A stretch of DNA of 36,418 nt from a virus: positions 1 through 36,418 of the IMG/VR virus record IMGVR_UViG_3300037156_000013. The stretch is one strand, 5' to 3'. Positions 15,840 to 36,418 of this stretch are shown in pieces; the first letter of the stretch is position 1; each line of letters begins with the position of its first letter. A program made the translations under genes and the position numbers. A model generated the notes under the pieces. It did not search any database. It had not been told where the DNA came from and worked only from the letters and a program-made list of their open reading frames with translations.

Positions 15840-17057
15840 TTACACTGTTAAATATCTACAAGATAATTCGGCGTAAGTCGCGGCCCAGCCAAACAACACG
15901 TCAATACGCATCAAGCTATTGTCATTGATGAAGTCGTAACCATCAGTAACCTTAACAGTGAAACCATTGCGTGACTCTTGATGAGCGCGTGCACCTGTGC
16001 CAGCTGGCGGCATTTCCATAGGAACCATAGCCAATGTAAACGCATCTTTATGGAACGCGATGTTAGATTGATATGCTGTTGAAGGTGTACCTTTAATCAC
16101 ATAAGGTTGACCATTAGTTGGTGATGCTGTTACGTTCTGGAATGCACCGCTAGTAACCAAGGCTGGGCTTACGTTGATAGTAGTTGCACCTTGCAACGCA
16201 TCAGCAGTAACGATGAAGTCAGCAAGCACACCAGTTGATTGACGTGTTTGCGGATTAACTGCATAAACGCCCGGCAATGTAATAGCTGTACCACGTGCCA
16301 ATGTACCAGCAGCAACAGCAACGACAGTGAGAGCCGTACCAGTGATATTTGCCGCATTGATATTGGTTGCAGTTGCAGCACCTAAAGTCAATGTAGATAC
16401 GTTCTGATCCATGCCGATGACAAAGCCCAATGAATCAACCATCATGCCGTTACCGTATTGTGCTTTGATTTTTTCTTGTGAATTGAAAAGACCAGATAAG
16501 CCAGCAACAGAAGCACCGTTAAGACCTGGGCCCATGATGAAAGCTTTCTCACCGCGATTAGTCGGTGCGGCCATTTCATTCAAACGGCGTAATGAATCAG
16601 TGTAAACTTGCACAGCACCGATTTGAGTTGTAGGTAAAGCACCTGTTACGTTCAATGTGTTGTATGCTGAGAACTTGGCAAGCTCAAGACCTTGACGATC
16701 AATCTCATTGACTACAGTTGCAATAGCAGCTTGAATTTTAGTATCCAATGAATCTTCTGTAAGGCCGACAGTGCGCTCAAAGCTAGTGAAGTTTAAATCT
16801 GTACCGCCTTGAGTAAGTGTTAATGGTACGGTTGTATCTGTTGATGCTTGTGGTACTGATACGCGACCAGCACGGTAAGTGTAACGAGAAGGACGTTTGA
16901 TATTGATAGTAGCACCCGGCGCATAGCCGCGTGACATATTACCAGTATATTCATCTTCCCATGTACGGTTGACGTTAGAGGCGAATGATAAGCTATTCTC
17001 CAAGATTGCTAGTGTTTTCTTTGCTACGATAGAACTCGTGGCTAATACGTTGCTCAT
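15840..17057 (-). CDS. Major capsid protein, P22 coat (gp5)-like
   Basis: 405 aa, close to P22 coat (430). It begins with VLATSSIVAKKTLAILENSL followed by NRTWEDEY and GATINIKRPSRY, the N-terminal arm and early strands of the P22-like HK97 fold, and has SLDTKIQAAIATVVNEIDRQ, which resembles the spine helix region. An inserted beta-rich section (about 225-320) resembles the I-domain of P22 coat. The C-terminus has AHQESRNGFTVKVTDGYDF and IDVLFGWAATYAELSCR, highly typical. It assembles on the scaffold encoded just upstream. Confidence 0.85.
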   Translation of the reverse strand: MSNVLATSSIVAKKTLAILENSLSFASNVNRTWEDEYTGNMSRGYAPGATINIKRPSRYTYRAGRVSVPQASTDTTVPLTLTQGGTDLNFTSFERTVGLTEDSLDTKIQAAIATVVNEIDRQGLELAKFSAYNTLNVTGALPTTQIGAVQVYTDSLRRLNEMAAPTNRGEKAFIMGPGLNGASVAGLSGLFNSQEKIKAQYGNGMMVDSLGFVIGMDQNVSTLTLGAATATNINAANITGTALTVVAVAAGTLARGTAITLPGVYAVNPQTRQSTGVLADFIVTADALQGATTINVSPALVTSGAFQNVTASPTNGQPYVIKGTPSTAYQSNIAFHKDAFTLAMVPMEMPPAGTGARAHQESRNGFTVKVTDGYDFINDNSLMRIDVLFGWAATYAELSCRYLTV

Positions 17058-17086
17058 TGTATAACTCCTTTGTTTACGTGTATAAT
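17057..17086 (+). promoter_or_regulatory. Possible promoter for the HNH gene
   Basis: A perfect TATAAT at 17081-17086 lies 34 bases before the HNH start; the -35 (TTGTAT at 17057-17062, 18-base spacing) is weak. It would allow the plus-strand homing endonuclease to be made independently of the late operon. Confidence 0.35.
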
Positions 17087-17119
17087 ATAAAACTCATAAC
17101 CAACCTAAAGGTCACAAAT

Positions 17120-17671
17120 ATGATTAGCATTAAAGTAGAAGGAATCGAATACCGATTTTACGACCACTTGTTTGCAGTTTCTGCTTGCGGAAAAGTTCTT
17201 AGAACATTCCAACCCTACGAGCCAAGAGACTACCGTCCAGACGGATATAGAACATTAGGACGTAAAAGATTGATGCATCGAGTAGTTGCTACTTGCTGGA
17301 TACCAAATCCAGACAATAAGGAACATGTACATCATATCAATGGCGATAGAAAAGATAATCGAGCATCAAATTTACAATGGCTTACACCAAAAGAACATAT
17401 TGGTGAATCTCATCCTACTAATGGCTATTATGTACGCACGCCAGAAATACTTGAGAAGTACCGACAAGTTCAATTAGGTCGTAAAGATAGTGAAGAAACT
17501 AAAGCTCTTAAAAAAGTAACTTTAGATGCTTACCGCAATAAACGCGGTTGTAAAGTTAATGGCATTACCTATCAAAGCATGTCAGAAGGCGCAAGAGCCA
17601 CTGGAATGCTTCTAAGTAGTTTTGCTGTAAGGTGTCGTTCTAAAAACTTTCCTGATTACGAACTTATTTAA
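17120..17671 (+). CDS. HNH homing endonuclease
   Basis: 183 aa. The HNH core reads LMHRVVATCWIPNP, then VHHINGDRKDNRASNLQWLT, with the His-His-Asn pattern of phage HNH homing nucleases. The C-terminus (KVNGITYQSMSEGARATGML to the end) looks like a NUMOD1-type DNA-binding helix. AAAGG eight bases before ATG 17120 supports this start. It lies between coat and scaffold on the strand opposite to all its neighbours, i.e. a free-standing mobile gene inserted in an intergenic gap. It starts 63 bases from the coat start and ends two bases from the scaffold stop. Confidence 0.85.
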   Translation: MISIKVEGIEYRFYDHLFAVSACGKVLRTFQPYEPRDYRPDGYRTLGRKRLMHRVVATCWIPNPDNKEHVHHINGDRKDNRASNLQWLTPKEHIGESHPTNGYYVRTPEILEKYRQVQLGRKDSEETKALKKVTLDAYRNKRGCKVNGITYQSMSEGARATGMLLSSFAVRCRSKNFPDYELI

Positions 17672-32239: not shown

Positions 32240-32376
32240 GATGTTTTCTCCGTATCAATAATAATCTGCATAATCTCTATTGTTTCATTGGCTGATTTAA
32301 GTTTAATTTTAATCTCAGCCAGTTCATCCAGCAGCTCGGCAATCTTTTGATCGCGCTCTTGTAGTAGGGTAATCAT
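32236..32376 (-). CDS. 46-aa coiled-coil micro-protein
   Basis: ATG 32376 overlaps the Cro-like gene's stop. Almost the whole chain is one coiled coil (LLQERDQKIAELLDELAEIK ...). Part of the overlapping cro operon. Could oligomerise; function unknown. Confidence 0.45.
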   Translation of the reverse strand: MITLLQERDQKIAELLDELAEIKIKLKSANETIEIMQIIIDTEKTS

Positions 32377-32585
32377 TTTATGCCTTTCTTTAAATTGCCA
32401 GCATATTCACGAATAGAGCTAGCTTTGATTTTACCTTTGGTAGATTTTTGTACCATATCCCCGTGCATAAACGGTATAAATCCGCGATCAATCCATCCAT
32501 TCAATCGCTGTGGCGTAATGCCAATGGCCTTTGCACACTCCGTCTTGTTGTAGTACAAATCAATAAGTTCTGTTAATGGATTCAT
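32373..32585 (-). CDS. Cro/YdaS-like regulator
   Basis: 70 aa with AAAGG seven bases before the ATG. TECAKAIGITPQRLNGWIDR (residues about 15-34) is a helix-turn-helix of the YdaS/Cro type, followed by a KASSIREYA dimer/second-half. It is the first leftward gene after the divergent control region, the place of cro in lambdoid phages. It would bind operators between the two early promoters. No partner CI repressor gene is visible on the other side. Confidence 0.7.
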   Translation of the reverse strand: MNPLTELIDLYYNKTECAKAIGITPQRLNGWIDRGFIPFMHGDMVQKSTKGKIKASSIREYAGNLKKGIK

Positions 32586-32610
32586 ATAATTACCTTTGTA
32601 ATGTTGCTAT

Positions 32611-32640
32611 ATCTTAGCATTAAATAATTAATATTGTAAA
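32611..32640 (-). promoter_or_regulatory. Leftward early promoter (cro)
   Basis: Minus-strand TTTACA (32635-32640), 18-base spacer ending in TGC, TAAGAT (32611-32616). The TGn makes an extended -10, compensating the weaker hexamer. The start site would be near 32604, some 20 bases before the Cro-like ATG. Confidence 0.5.
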
Positions 32641-32674
32641 TTGTTTTTAACTTATCTTTTTAATTTGTTTAAAT

Positions 32675-32688
32675 TTATTTTAAAATAA
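32675..32688. promoter_or_regulatory. Candidate operator palindrome
   Basis: A perfect 14-base palindrome, TTATTTTAAAATAA, in the middle of the divergent region between the two early promoters. AT-rich palindromes arise easily in such DNA, so this is only a candidate site for the Cro-like protein. Confidence 0.3.
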
Positions 32689-32691
32689 TTG

Positions 32692-32720
32692 TTGCATATT
32701 TAAATAAGCCATGCTCTAAT
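32692..32720 (+). promoter_or_regulatory. Rightward early promoter candidate
   Basis: Plus-strand TTGCAT (32692-32697), 17-base spacer ending in TGC, TCTAAT (32715-32720): weak -35, extended -10 with five of six matches. It would start the rightward operon about 25 bases before the first gene's GGAG. Confidence 0.5.
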
Positions 32721-32751
32721 GGCACATCAACAACGCAACGGAGTAATTAAG

Positions 32752-32922
32752 ATGAATAAATTATTATTAGCATTAGTTATAGCATTAACCTCAGTAAAAA
32801 CACATTGTAAAAAAGGTCATGAGTTCAGCGGTAATAATTTAAGAGTAAATAATCGTGGCGAAAGATGTTGCAAAATTTGTCACAGAATTTCTGACAATGA
32901 ATCTAGAAAAAGGAAACTTTAA
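32752..32922 (+). CDS. Small zinc-binding protein with hydrophobic start
   Basis: 56 aa; GGAG eight bases before ATG 32752. Residues 4-14 are hydrophobic (LLLALVIALTS), then HCKKGHEFSG ... GERCCKIC, the C-x3-H ... C-x2-C knuckle found at the end of many HNH proteins but here without an HNH core. It is the first rightward early gene. Whether the hydrophobic start anchors it to the membrane is unclear. Confidence 0.5.
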   Translation: MNKLLLALVIALTSVKTHCKKGHEFSGNNLRVNNRGERCCKICHRISDNESRKRKL

Positions 32923-33483
32923 ATGGCTATTTTTGAAATTAAACATCGCTACACGGAAAATATTTTGTATGCCTGTGATGCTGAAAATTTAAAAGACGCA
33001 GTGATTGAGGCGGCAGCTAAAAAAGCTGACCTTGGCGGTGCTTACCTTCGCGGTGCTGACCTTGGCGGTGCTTACCTTCGCGGTGCTTACCTTAGCGGTG
33101 CTGACCTTGGCGGTGCTTACCTTCGCGGTGCTGACCTTGGCGGTGCTGACCTTGGCGGTGCTTACCTTCGCGGTGCTTACCTTAGCGGTGCTGACCTTAG
33201 CGGTGCTTACCTTAGCAGTGAAAAAATAGCTATCGCGCCTATCTCAATATTAAACCTTACATGGGATATTTTAATTAGCGAAAGCTATTTAAAAATAGGC
33301 TGCCAGCGTCACACCCATGATGAATGGAAAGCATTTACTGATGATGAAATTGCAGAAATGGAAAGCCGCGCTAGTTCATTCTGGACTTCTAATAAAATAT
33401 GGTTGCTTTCAGCATGTAAATATCACCGTAAAGAATCATTAGCATTTCGTAAAGCTAATCCTGAAATTAAAGACGGTGAATAG
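32923..33483 (+). CDS. Pentapeptide-repeat protein
   Basis: 186 aa. Residues 35-99 are 13 pentapeptides of A(D/Y)LxG type, about three turns of a right-handed quadrilateral beta helix. Residues 1-34 are a small leader (FEIKHRYTENILYACDAENL), and from about 100 a separate domain with IGCQRHTHDEWKAFTDDEIA, found attached to pentapeptide repeats in many phages. Some such proteins mimic DNA (Qnr, MfpA), but this repeat block is short and lacks a clear acidic face, so that role is only a possibility. One base separates it from the upstream stop. Confidence 0.8.
   Translation: MAIFEIKHRYTENILYACDAENLKDAVIEAAAKKADLGGAYLRGADLGGAYLRGAYLSGADLGGAYLRGADLGGADLGGAYLRGAYLSGADLSGAYLSSEKIAIAPISILNLTWDILISESYLKIGCQRHTHDEWKAFTDDEIAEMESRASSFWTSNKIWLLSACKYHRKESLAFRKANPEIKDGE
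33025..33219 (+). repeat. 15-bp tandem repeats encoding pentapeptides
   Basis: Thirteen 15-base units built from a few nearly identical DNA words (GCTGACCTTGGCGGT, GCTTACCTTCGCGGT, GCTTACCTTAGCGGT). DNA identity is much higher than needed for the protein pattern, so recent unequal crossing or slippage is likely and copy number may vary. Confidence 0.9.
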
Positions 33484-33484
33484 T

Positions 33485-33694
33485 ATGCCAACTGAAAGTT
33501 TAGAGCTAACCACCGTATCAATCAACAACAAGTTATTTGATGTTTACTACTCAGTTTTCGATGAAACTGAAATAAAGATTGAGTCAGTCGAAATGTTGCG
33601 CGATAGAACAAACATCATGGAATTTTTAAATGATGCAACTATAGCAACATTGCATAAAGAAGTTAAATTATTACATTTGGAGCAATTAAAATGA
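33485..33694 (+). CDS. Unknown small protein
   Basis: 69 aa from ATG 33485, shortly after the pentapeptide gene's TAG. Mostly beta then helix (VSINNKLFDVYYSVFDETEI, ATIATLHKEVKLLHLEQLK). The stop overlaps the next ATG by four bases. No family recognised. Confidence 0.5.
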   Translation: MPTESLELTTVSINNKLFDVYYSVFDETEIKIESVEMLRDRTNIMEFLNDATIATLHKEVKLLHLEQLK

Positions 33695-34005
33695 AAAAAG
33701 TATCAGGAACAACAAAAGCTTGGCTAAATCAATATTCAGGTTTAATTCTATCAACTCAAACAAATGAACAAGTTGTAAATACATTATCATATTCATGTTC
33801 AGATATGACAGAACACGGCTGGACTTATGTTGGTGACGCTAAAGTCACTATCGAATTGTTTGATGATGACGCTATCTTAAACAGTAAAATATCTACATTG
33901 AAAGCACAAAAGCAGAAAGTTCAAGCAGATGCGTTTGTGCAATCTAATGAGATTGATGAAGAAATTCAAAAGTTATTAGCTATTACTGACAAAAGTGGTG
34001 ATTAA
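33691..34005 (+). CDS. Unknown early protein
   Basis: 104 aa. The ATG overlaps the previous stop and has TTGGAGCAA upstream. N-terminal half mixed (MTEHGWTYVGDAKVTIELFD), C-terminal half a coiled coil (LNSKISTLKAQKQKVQADAF). Probably oligomeric; function unknown. Confidence 0.55.
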   Translation: MKKVSGTTKAWLNQYSGLILSTQTNEQVVNTLSYSCSDMTEHGWTYVGDAKVTIELFDDDAILNSKISTLKAQKQKVQADAFVQSNEIDEEIQKLLAITDKSGD

Positions 34006-34007
34006 TC

Positions 34008-34190
34008 GTGAATGACGGACTAAAAGAAGTATTACTTTCAACCTTTATCATCGGCTCATTCATCGGTGTTTATATATGGGCACAGGTCCATGATGATCAA
34101 GTAGAACAGACCGCATGTATTGAAGTGCATGCTAAGTTAAACCGTAGTGAAAGCACGATTTTGTGCGGTAAATTAGTTAAGGAGAATTAA
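34008..34190 (+). CDS. Small single-pass membrane protein
   Basis: 60 aa from a GTG start two bases after the previous stop. Residues 8-26 are hydrophobic (VLLSTFIIGSFIGVYIWA), followed by a short soluble part with two cysteines (TACIEVHAKL, ILCGKLVK). Probably exposes its C-terminal part to the periplasm. Function unknown. Confidence 0.5.
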   Translation: MNDGLKEVLLSTFIIGSFIGVYIWAQVHDDQVEQTACIEVHAKLNRSESTILCGKLVKEN

Positions 34191-34191
34191 G

Positions 34192-34398
34192 ATGAGCAAT
34201 ATTAATAAAAGAATTATCCGTTTACCAGAAATTAAAAGAGTTACAAGTTTATCAAGAAGTACAATTTTATTAATGGTTAAAAATGGAAAATTTCCTCGTA
34301 GCATTTCACTGTCTGATGACGGTAGAGCTGTAGGCTGGTTAGAGAGTGATGTTCAAGAGTGGATTGATTCTCGTATATCTGCAACTAAAGTAGTCTAG
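34192..34398 (+). CDS. AlpA-family regulator / excisionase-like
   Basis: 68 aa; AAGGAG upstream of ATG 34192. The sequence RIIRLPEIKRVTSLSRSTIL, then KNGKFPRSISLSDDGRAVGW and ESDVQEWIDSR, is a full AlpA domain with winged-helix-turn-helix. AlpA proteins act as regulators of phage integrases or early genes; no integrase is recognisable in this genome, so here it is more likely a transcription regulator. It lies ahead of the promoter and RNA at 34.55-34.69 kb, a plausible target. Confidence 0.8.
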   Translation: MSNINKRIIRLPEIKRVTSLSRSTILLMVKNGKFPRSISLSDDGRAVGWLESDVQEWIDSRISATKVV

Positions 34399-34407
34399 GA
34401 GATTACC

Positions 34408-34539
34408 ATGGTAGATTATAATAAAACTAAAGATTACCTACAATCCACTCAAAGCCATATCGCGCTATACATTGTATTCTTTATCATGGCTATGGTATTT
34501 ATTGCTGTGCTGGGTGAATGGGCTAAGTGGGCTTGGTGA
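34408..34539 (+). CDS. 43-aa membrane micro-protein
   Basis: An excellent AGGAG seven bases before ATG 34408. Residues about 18-37 are a hydrophobic helix (IALYIVFFIMAMVFIAVLGE), followed by WAKWAW, a tryptophan-rich interface end. Last gene before the strong promoter at 34549. Function unknown. Confidence 0.6.
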   Translation: MVDYNKTKDYLQSTQSHIALYIVFFIMAMVFIAVLGEWAKWAW

Positions 34540-34548
34540 ATATTGTGA

Positions 34549-34577
34549 TTGACAATGGTAATTTTATGTTAGATAAT
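34549..34577 (+). promoter_or_regulatory. Strong sigma-70 promoter
   Basis: TTGACA (34549-34554), 17-base spacer, GATAAT (34572-34577): six and five of six matches at ideal spacing. It drives the structured RNA that follows. Predicted start near 34584. Confidence 0.8.
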
Positions 34578-34583
34578 TTACTT

Positions 34584-34691
34584 AATTGCTTGGTGGCGAT
34601 AAACATAGTAAGGCTTCACATGGATACTGGCGGTTACTATACCGCTCCACCAACACTTTAAAACAGTGAGTATCCAGGTGAAGCCTTTTTT
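34584..34691 (+). ncRNA. Structured phage RNA, C4/P4-immunity-like candidate
   Basis: Predicted transcript of about 108 nt. An 18-pair outer stem (34610-34619 with 34678-34687, then 34621-34628 with 34669-34676, one A-G mismatch between) encloses two hairpins: GCGGT/ACCGC (34630-34645) and CACT/AGTG (34654-34668). Single-stranded CCACCAA (34647-34653) lies between them and is fully complementary to TTGGTGG at 34590-34596 near the 5' end. The outer stem is followed by six T. A closed multi-branch fold with an exposed segment complementary to the leader is how C4 antisense RNA of P1 and CI RNA of P4 are built. The class assignment is inference. Confidence 0.65.
34610..34691 (+). terminator. Terminator formed by the RNA's outer stem
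   Basis: The long outer stem of the RNA followed by TTTTTT (34686-34691) is a strong intrinsic terminator. It lies between the promoter at 34549 and the genes from 34706, so those genes would be reached only by read-through or from upstream transcription. Confidence 0.7.
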
Positions 34692-34705
34692 ATTGGACGA
34701 AACAA

Positions 34706-35206
34706 ATGGCAAATGATAAAAAAACACACTGGAAAAGTTTAGTTAATCCAGACTATATTGGGGCTTATGCTCTACCTAATGGTGAAGATATAACCGTAAC
34801 AATTAAGAGCGTAGCGCGTGAAGTAGTTACTATGGCAGGCGGAAAGAAAGAAGAATGCACTGTTGTGCAATTAGTTAATAACAAGCCTTTCATTATTAAC
34901 GCGACTAACTCAAAATCAATTCATCGACTATATGGCCCATACATTGAAGAATGGACTGGAAAGCAGATTACTTTACACGCTAGCACTACTAAATTTGGTG
35001 GCGAGTTGGTTGAGTGTTTGCGTATTCGTCCTGATGTTGCTAGACCTAAGAAGCAAACTATCACTGATGAACGACTAAAGAAAGCCATCGGTTCAATTCA
35101 AGAAGGTACTTATACCAAAGAAAAACTGCTTGAAAACTTTGTTCTAAATGCCGAGCAGATAAAAATGCTTGAAGAAAAACAGGAGTCTGTAAATGTTGAG
35201 GATTAG
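34706..35206 (+). CDS. Conserved phage protein paired with exonuclease
   Basis: 166 aa. The core (NPDYIGAYALPNGEDITVTI, KPFIINATNSKSIHRLYGPY, IEEWTGKQITLH) looks like an OB-type or similar beta domain and belongs to a group of phage proteins encoded directly before a YqaJ-like exonuclease; the C-terminus is helical. A single-strand-binding or annealing-partner role is plausible from this pairing but not shown. The ribosome site GGACGAAACAA is modest. Overlaps the exonuclease start by 14 bases. Confidence 0.55.
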   Translation: MANDKKTHWKSLVNPDYIGAYALPNGEDITVTIKSVAREVVTMAGGKKEECTVVQLVNNKPFIINATNSKSIHRLYGPYIEEWTGKQITLHASTTKFGGELVECLRIRPDVARPKKQTITDERLKKAIGSIQEGTYTKEKLLENFVLNAEQIKMLEEKQESVNVED

Positions 35207-35822
35207 AGCATCATCACTTGGCTTGATTATGACTGAACCTAAGTTAAAAACAGAGGTTCTTTCAGCAGGGGCTAAAACATACGTTAAGAAGCTCGCCAGA
35301 GAGTTTGTTTATAACTTTGATGAAGATATATCAAGTAAGTATATGGATAAGGGTATCATCGTAGAAGATACTTCTATAGCTCTGTATAACAGCGTTTTCT
35401 TTACAGACTATAAAAAGAACACTGAGCGCAAAACTAATGAATGGATTACTGGTGAATGTGATATTTATACCGGTAAAAAGATAATTGATATTAAGTCATC
35501 ATGGTCGCTCGCTACATTCCCATGTATTAGCGAGGATGGGATAGACAAAGGTTATGAGTGGCAAGGTCGCGCTTATATGATGCTATGGGATTGTGACGAG
35601 TTTGAAAATGCTTACTGCATGGTAAGCACGCCAGAAGAATTGCTACGTTATGACCAAGAAGATTTGCACTATGTCGATAATATTGAAGAATCTCTACGGG
35701 TTACAATAACGCCATACACTAGAGATTTAGAGCTTGAAGAAAAGATAAAGGTTAAGTGCGAAGCTGCACAGTTATATTTTAACGAAGTATGCGAGAAAAT
35801 TGCTCTTGATCATAATCATTAA
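35193..35822 (+). CDS. YqaJ/RecB-like recombination exonuclease
   Basis: 209 aa. The PD-(D/E)xK core reads GECDIYTGKKIIDIKSSWS: Asp and the D-x-K in IDIK with a preceding ExxxY-type helix, then YEWQGRAYMML, the QxxxY box of the lambda-exonuclease/RecB group. Such enzymes resect double-strand ends for phage recombination or degrade host DNA. Along with the preceding gene, NinB and NinG it gives the phage its own recombination set. Starts inside the previous gene with AGGAG shortly before (35180-35184). Confidence 0.75.
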   Translation: MLRIRASSLGLIMTEPKLKTEVLSAGAKTYVKKLAREFVYNFDEDISSKYMDKGIIVEDTSIALYNSVFFTDYKKNTERKTNEWITGECDIYTGKKIIDIKSSWSLATFPCISEDGIDKGYEWQGRAYMMLWDCDEFENAYCMVSTPEELLRYDQEDLHYVDNIEESLRVTITPYTRDLELEEKIKVKCEAAQLYFNEVCEKIALDHNH

Positions 35823-35894
35823 TATTTTATAAATAATCCCTCTATAAATGTTAGAACTAATTTACAAAGTAACTTAACCAAAGGAGTAATAAAA

Positions 35895-36215
35895 ATGAGT
35901 AAACCTAACACAATTAAGATTGACGATATTGAATATGTACGTAGTGATTTAATGGCACCACCAGTAAGTGGTACTCGTGCCGTGATTATAGTAGACCGTG
36001 GTTGGATTTTTGCAGGTGATGTTATGCGTGAGAATGGACGCATTAAATTAAGTCGAGCTATTCACGTATTAAGATGGGAATCAATCGGGTTTGACGGAAT
36101 GATAGATAATCCTAAAAATAGCAAAGTTACATTAAAACCACTATCAAATGTTGTGGATATGCCTGAAAGTGCTGAAATATTCGCTATCCCTGTTGCGGAT
36201 GATTGGGGGCTATAG
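35895..36215 (+). CDS. DUF6948-like phage protein
   Basis: 106 aa with AAGGAG ahead of ATG 35895. Key phrases are KIDDIEYVRSD, RAVIIVDRGWIFAGDV and the ending PVADDWGL. I associate these with a family of small early phage proteins (DUF6948) of unknown function, which in several phages is followed at once by a Gly-X repeat gene, as here. The stop TAG shares a G with the GTG start of that gene. The minus-strand frame across it is a shadow. Confidence 0.65.
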   Translation: MSKPNTIKIDDIEYVRSDLMAPPVSGTRAVIIVDRGWIFAGDVMRENGRIKLSRAIHVLRWESIGFDGMIDNPKNSKVTLKPLSNVVDMPESAEIFAIPVADDWGL

Positions 36216-36418
36216 TGACTACGTTTAAACCTATAGGCTACGGCTGCGGCGACGGCTACGGCAACGGCTACGGCGACGGCTACGGCAACGGCTACGGCAA
36301 CAGCTACGGCAACAGCTACGGCAACGGCTACGGCTACGGCTACGGCAACGGCTACGGCAACGGCAACGGCTACGGCGACGGCGACGGCGATGGCTACGGC
36401 GACGGCGACGGCGACGGC
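36215..36418 (+). CDS. (Gly-X)n low-complexity protein, N-terminal part
   Basis: A GTG start at 36215 shares its first base with the previous TAG, with GGGGG about six bases upstream. It opens TTFKPIGYGCGDGYGNGYGD and continues as Gly alternating with Tyr, Asn and Asp to the contig end, then on from position 2 of the window to the stop at 187. Total 87 aa. Codons are almost entirely GGC, TAC, AAC and GAC, unlike the AT-ending codons of neighbours. This is a partial entry because the contig was cut inside it. Confidence 0.6.
   Translation, partial: MTTFKPIGYGCGDGYGNGYGDGYGNGYGNSYGNSYGNGYGYGYGNGYGNGNGYGDGDGDGYGDGDGDG
36236..36418 (+). repeat. GGCNAC hexanucleotide array, junction-proximal part
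   Basis: Start of the hexamer array, opening with GGCTAC GGCTGC GGCGAC and continuing to the contig end, where the last 127 bases duplicate the window start. Every glycine codon is GGC or, twice, replaced by AGC serine. The partner codons are almost all C-ending. Confidence 0.95.
36292..36418. repeat. Terminal direct repeat, right copy
   Basis: Right copy of the 127-base identity with positions 1-127. Removing one copy gives a circle of 36,291 bp in which the gene beginning at 36215 continues in frame to a stop at 187. Confidence 0.85.

Follow-up and report, generated by a model that had tools for sequence, protein, structure and literature searches.

A phage leader RNA with C4-like two-site addressing, proposed to act as an antisense/attenuator switch

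RNA regulators of phages and the element in the window

The C4 RNA of phages P1 and P7 and the CI RNA of satellite phage P4 are the classic cases of RNA-based phage immunity. The P4 CI RNA finds its pairing sites in the untranslated leader of its own transcript, and it controls termination; a longer leader is processed to yield it, and the termination that it promotes does not occur at an intrinsic terminator of its own. C4-type RNAs are also made outside P1: Acinetobacter baumannii expresses a large set of C4-like RNAs, apparently with processing at a GG close to the base of their stem (PMC5320573). IsrK of the Salmonella prophage Gifsy-1 activates translation and pairs within orf45 (PMC4825925). 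For T4-type homing endonucleases, the available part of one account describes RNA structures or terminators ahead of or inside the gene that limit its expression; the controls covered there are ribosome-site hairpins or simple terminators, and a two-site antisense logic is not among them (PMC2988022).

The window analysed here, the whole 36,418-nucleotide stretch of IMG/VR virus record IMGVR_UViG_3300037156_000013, holds a compact unit between the end of a 43-aa open reading frame at 34539 and the start of the next gene at 34706, which a preliminary description had read as a promoter-driven, terminated RNA resembling C4 and P4 immunity RNAs (Table 1). Its parts follow in the order promoter, leader hairpin, short single strand and long stem with two hairpins, then six T (34686-34691), and this GC-rich stem with the T run behind it forms an intrinsic terminator. 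The near-consensus promoter reported earlier is borne out: TTGACA (34549-34554) and GATAAT (34572-34577) match the consensus at 11 of 12 positions and rank first among 11 promoter-like sites in 32300-36418, and shuffling the 70 bases upstream 300 times never produced an equally good pair. The same can be said of the terminated stem and its hairpins, as 34582-34697 folds at -42.5 kcal/mol (z -5.4) and the core, 34606-34692, at -37.3 kcal/mol (z -7.7), with 0 of 200 shuffles folding as stably as the element.

The leader site TTGGTGG (a) is, as had been pointed out, the exact complement of the single-stranded CCACCAA (a'). We found a second such pair, in which leader ATAGTAA (b) is exactly complementary to TTACTAT (b'), a stretch made up of the hairpin 1 loop plus its closing base. 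None of 2000 dinucleotide-shuffled versions of the leader contained both matches, and the full a+b site is present once per whole record, only in each element's own leader. A further recurrence that had been proposed as a second target, inside the next gene, exists (TTGGTGGCGA) at 34995-35004, one base from the position first given; it is probably not a target, because it has no b site and encodes a conserved KFGGELVE stretch that is also kept in relatives without the RNA. Two other candidates were rejected: a leader peptide, MDTGGYYTAPPTL, is open in the window and one relative (L005) only and is not kept in the other members, and the TTGGR...AACAAATG sequence after the T run, considered as a second target, is common behind ordinary phage terminators and hence unspecific.

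Table 1 Positions of the element's parts and of the genes behind it, in window coordinates
Feature	Position	Strand	Evidence
Sigma-70 promoter, TTGACA-17-GATAAT	34549..34577	+	consensus match, shuffle test
Leader hairpin ATTGCT-TGGT-GGCGAT, presents site a	34585..34600	+	fold; stem covaries in relatives
Target site a, TTGGTGG	34590..34596	+	complementarity, covariation
Target site b, ATAGTAA	34605..34611	+	complementarity, covariation, shuffles
Outer/terminator stem, 5' arm	34610..34628	+	fold, alignment
Hairpin 1; loop holds b' TTACTAT (34634-34640)	34629..34646	+	fold, complementarity
a' CCACCAA, single-stranded, complement of site a	34647..34653	+	complementarity, covariation
Hairpin 2, CACT...AGTG; in L005 U-A to C-G	34654..34668	+	relatives, fold
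Outer stem 3' arm and T run (intrinsic terminator)	34669..34691	+	sequence, fold
Gene, 166 aa, PHROG 21613 (unknown function), presumed regulated	34706..35206	+	
Phage exonuclease gene, PHROG 5715, next in operon	35193..35822	+	

Relatives of the element and covariation

Three viral contigs carry relatives of the gene that follows the element. One (L001) is a nearly identical phage in which the element is kept; the other two (L002, L003) carry the gene with the element absent, and conservation together with the downstream gene was rejected on this ground. A pattern search led to L005, whose element is 97% identical over a 115-column core and lies ahead of an HNH endonuclease gene; as the upstream and downstream flanks are unrelated between the window and L005, the element appears to be a discrete, transferable module. 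A covariance model built from these two sequences (R1) matched two far more divergent copies (G014a, G014b) in G014, a 41.7-kb phage contig (E 4e-14 and 6e-12). A 3'-end search (T run plus start region) yielded L106, L171 and L229, with L106 and L229 also matching R1 at E of about 1e-11, and a model built from six sequences (R2) on its own revealed a third copy in G014 (G014c). The total is 8 distinct elements in 6 contigs, the near-identical L001 not counted, with three of them in phage G014 and all members being IMG/VR metagenome contigs. The alignments hold seven, L171 being left out because it has no hairpin 2 and is a loose match only.

The element was not found in P1 and 21 other named phage records (mostly picked for relatives of HNH or replication genes), nor in two samples of bacterial genomes of undisclosed clade. 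Searches with blastn against named phages and plasmids returned short chance matches only, and the matches of loose DNA pattern searches were nearly all chance, in coding sequence. A geometric descriptor script, which is supportive only since it missed the window element by over-extending the outer stem, gave 0 strong compact matches in 2.3 Mb of shuffled DNA.

HNH endonuclease genes of four PHROG families lie downstream of five elements (L005, G014a, G014b, L106 and L171), among which G014b is non-independent evidence for the association because G014 was reached via an HNH query; the other elements came from RNA or 3'-end searches. The L229 element precedes a gene related to phage replication proteins, and the gene behind G014c has no Pfam match. 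A strict HNH association rule was rejected, the elements of the window, L229 and G014c preceding other genes.

The nested structure covaries among these homologues, with both sides changed in 26 of 34 pairs, a count of changes among six or seven sequences related by descent and not of independent events. Pairing is found in 98-99% of cells, compared with only 38-49% in a control with partners slid along the alignment. The leader hairpin, hairpin 1 and hairpin 2 covary outside the terminator stem, as do a:a' and b:b', so that the conservation does not come from the terminator alone. The a:a' pairing, which is not part of the covariance model or alignment, is complete in all 7 distinct rows, including L235, found by a model without it; three positions are doubly changed (UA/GC; CG/UA/GC; GC/AU/CG), and the covariation score was reached by 0 of 500 shuffles. 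The a sites across elements read TTGGTGG, TTGGCGG, TTGGCAG, TTGGCCG and TGGGGAG, each with its exact partner. The b:b' columns are 93% paired with four doubly changed pairs, counts that are conservative because the covariance-model alignment splits some b/b' columns at gaps; the sets are ATAGTAA/TTACTAT, TTCGGTA/TACCGAA, TACGGTA/TACCGTA, TTTGGCA/TGCCAAA and CTAGTA/TACTAG, and pairing is weak in G014c (4-5 pairs). There are at least five distinct letter sets for each of a:a' and b:b'. Conserved letters are nearly confined to TTGG/CCAA plus a few, and the variable letters are kept only as complements.

When all combinations of sites were tabulated, the own a partners paired fully in every element and the own b partners were best in most, the exceptions being G014c (4/7, tied) and L106, whose b' pairs equally well with the b site of P1. 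With G-U allowed, the a sites of the window, G014a, G014b and L229 cross-pair well, so that specificity derives largely from b. The three G014 copies differ in both their a and b sites.

Comparison with C4 and models of action

We located a1/b1, C4 b'/a' and the downstream a2/b2 directly in the P1 record (L057, 1419-1622), where a1 is TTGACAG, b1 is GTTAGTG, and C4 carries b' CACTAAC and a' CTGTCAA. As in the C4 of P1 and P7 (RF01695; targets a1/b1, RF03163), a promoter-proximal a-b target lies on the element's own transcript, b' is held in a hairpin loop with a' single-stranded directly 3' of it, and the order of the segments is equal. The starts of a and b are 14 nt apart in P1, 15 in the window and 13-16 in the aligned elements; those of b' and a' are 13 nt apart in P1 C4, 13 in the window and 10-13 in the aligned elements (10 in G014c). 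Given this agreement in order and spacing, the address logic equals that of P1 C4. By contrast, the extra (tetraloop) hairpin lies 5' of the b' hairpin in C4 and 3' of a' here, the T run stands immediately behind the outer stem here and turns it into an intrinsic terminator, and a is separated from a' by about 57 nt here and about 138 nt in P1. C4 also has a2/b2 over the downstream ribosome-binding site/start codon, whereas no full a2/b2 occurs in these phage records.

An Rfam scan of the window gave no match to any family at gathering and relaxed thresholds, and RF01695, for which P1 served as positive control (68.8 bits), matched neither the window nor its relatives, relaxed E included; nor does this class, to which the A. 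baumannii C4-like RNAs belong, recognise the present family. The C4-like reading of the preliminary description is upheld in the architecture, the second pair, the covariation and the spacing, but not as membership, in view of the RF01695 result, the hairpin order and the terminator stem. The element would work like C4 but is not a demonstrated C4 member. A difference of one letter between P1 a1 and the G014b a site, TTGGCAG, hints at common descent with C4. The comparison with P4 CI, in likeness and difference, is made with its general description. The layout here fits that of IsrK, with a promoter, a predicted terminated small RNA, a predicted read-through mRNA as the putative trans target, and alternative structures.

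From the layout, the element is probably a self-contained autoregulatory antisense/attenuator RNA switch acting on its own leader. In the nascent transcript, cis pairing of the leader with b' and a' would come first, compete with hairpin 1 and hinder zipping of the terminator, so that at an early stage the polymerase would read through into the downstream genes. Most transcripts would end at the terminator, and the product would be a stable RNA, about 105 nt long, in which a' and b' are exposed. As this RNA accumulates, perhaps after trimming at the base of its stem (RNase P trims C4 in this way), it would pair in trans with the leaders of new transcripts, leaving their terminators free to form and shutting read-through off. 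Expression would then come in a pulse, and a copy already resident could silence an incoming one whose a/b letters match. Trans action and the sign of control are hypothetical; IsrK shows that such a layout can also activate. Immunity and control of the recombination genes, as proposed in the preliminary description, are inferred.

Folding of transcript prefixes is consistent with the early step of this switch. In prefixes ending just 3' of a', the leader pairs with a' in the window and L005, and with b' and a' in G014a, G014b and L106 (partly in G014c), at -17 to -25 kcal/mol; these folds form a:a', several of them with b:b' as well, in place of hairpin 1. The full-length RNAs of the aligned elements take the terminator form at -42 to -55 kcal/mol. 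As the b:b' form competes for hairpin 1, the simplest model is that cis pairing delays the terminator and the trans RNA frees it; cis pairing and a complete terminator could also coexist as a pseudoknot.

The same folds, in which the alternative hairpin precedes synthesis of the 3' arm, and the presence of both partners within one transcript would also fit a purely cis-acting kinetic attenuator. In this case the a-b/b'-a' hairpin would be an intermediate of folding, and it would set the ratio of read-through or sense translation or the speed of transcription, without any trans action. We regard this as a less likely alternative, since a very stable structure keeps a' and b' in its loops, which is also the case in the trans-acting C4, and the copies within one phage differ in their letters, which a cis-only switch would not need; such differences would be expected if trans crosstalk were selected against. 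An activator like Gifsy-1 IsrK, whose terminated RNA would pair with its own read-through mRNA and turn downstream translation on, shares the succession of promoter, terminated RNA and read-through mRNA (PMC4825925) and would fit the weak ribosome-binding sequence before 34706, but is improbable: a and b are both situated upstream of the terminator and far from the start codon, where pairing of a'/b' is limited to TTGG, common after phage terminators. It is very unlikely that the region is merely a strong terminator insulating two operons, with incidental complementarities; the strong stem and T run are there, and the stem alone supplies most of the folding energy, but the covariation outside it contradicts this reading, and the improbability of both leader matches by shuffling speaks against it. 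A role in binding an antitermination or repressor protein (put/nut-like), or as a riboswitch for a ligand, which the leader position, defined architecture and lambdoid/P22-like gene set might suggest, has an equally slim chance, as almost no sequence is conserved, unlike at protein or ligand sites, and the variable letters are only complementary.

Beyond the single-locus switch, we tentatively propose, as a reading that may well prove wrong, a so far undescribed family of mobile antisense/terminator cassettes that target themselves. Such cassettes would spread among phages, often in the company of homing endonucleases, and each would have a two-part address of its own; copies in one phage would be orthogonal, and silencing of the gene behind would be copy-specific and immunity-like. 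Novelty was judged against Rfam and a partial literature search, so an earlier description is possible. The family sits ahead of homing endonuclease and recombination/replication genes, and an attenuator before HNH genes would be sensible, given that RNA hairpins and terminators are known to restrain phage homing endonucleases (PMC2988022). If the proposal is true, this would be a second family with C4-style two-site addressing, built on an intrinsic terminator, the logic itself would be a reusable cassette, and phages would offer a supply of natural orthogonal transcription switches. It predicts the effects of compensatory a/a' and b/b' swaps and the orthogonality of the three G014 copies.

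Genes beside the element

The element is placed in a divergent rightward operon of a phage with a lambdoid/P22-like gene set (DnaB-like helicase, NinB, NinG, primosomal protein and a P22_Cro-like ORF below cut-off), and a weak ribosome-binding sequence precedes the start at 34706. The earlier statement that no CI repressor is visible agrees with the ORFs tested, none of which is a CI, but passes over a small helix-turn-helix ORF at 32373-32585 (-), at the divergent operon boundary, with weak P22_Cro/YdaS similarity below the Pfam cut-off; it is a candidate phage regulator. Directly upstream of the element lies a gene for an AlpA-family regulator/excisionase (34192-34398, +), and a pentapeptide-repeat protein is encoded at 32923-33483 (+). 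L003 has a similar repeat-rich stretch of GCTAACCTTATTGGC units upstream of the corresponding locus. At 36203-36418, tandem GGCTACGGCAAC-type repeats encode a Gly/Tyr/Asn/Asp-rich low-complexity protein and run off the contig end.

An HNH_3 endonuclease gene at 17057-17671 (+), on the strand opposite to the neighbouring structural genes, probably encodes a homing endonuclease of the free-standing type; the RNA was not found at this gene. Vibrio phage 41E34.2 (L213) and Aeromonas phage 4_4512 (L215) share a motif, CTAGGTT-AGC...GAACGT-GACT..., just upstream of HNH/AP2 genes, which is possibly another structured leader before homing-endonuclease genes. L122 and L188 have a terminator ahead of a TTGGGAT..AACAAATG start, with complementary TCCCAACA upstream, a possible further leader/terminator pairing of different layout.
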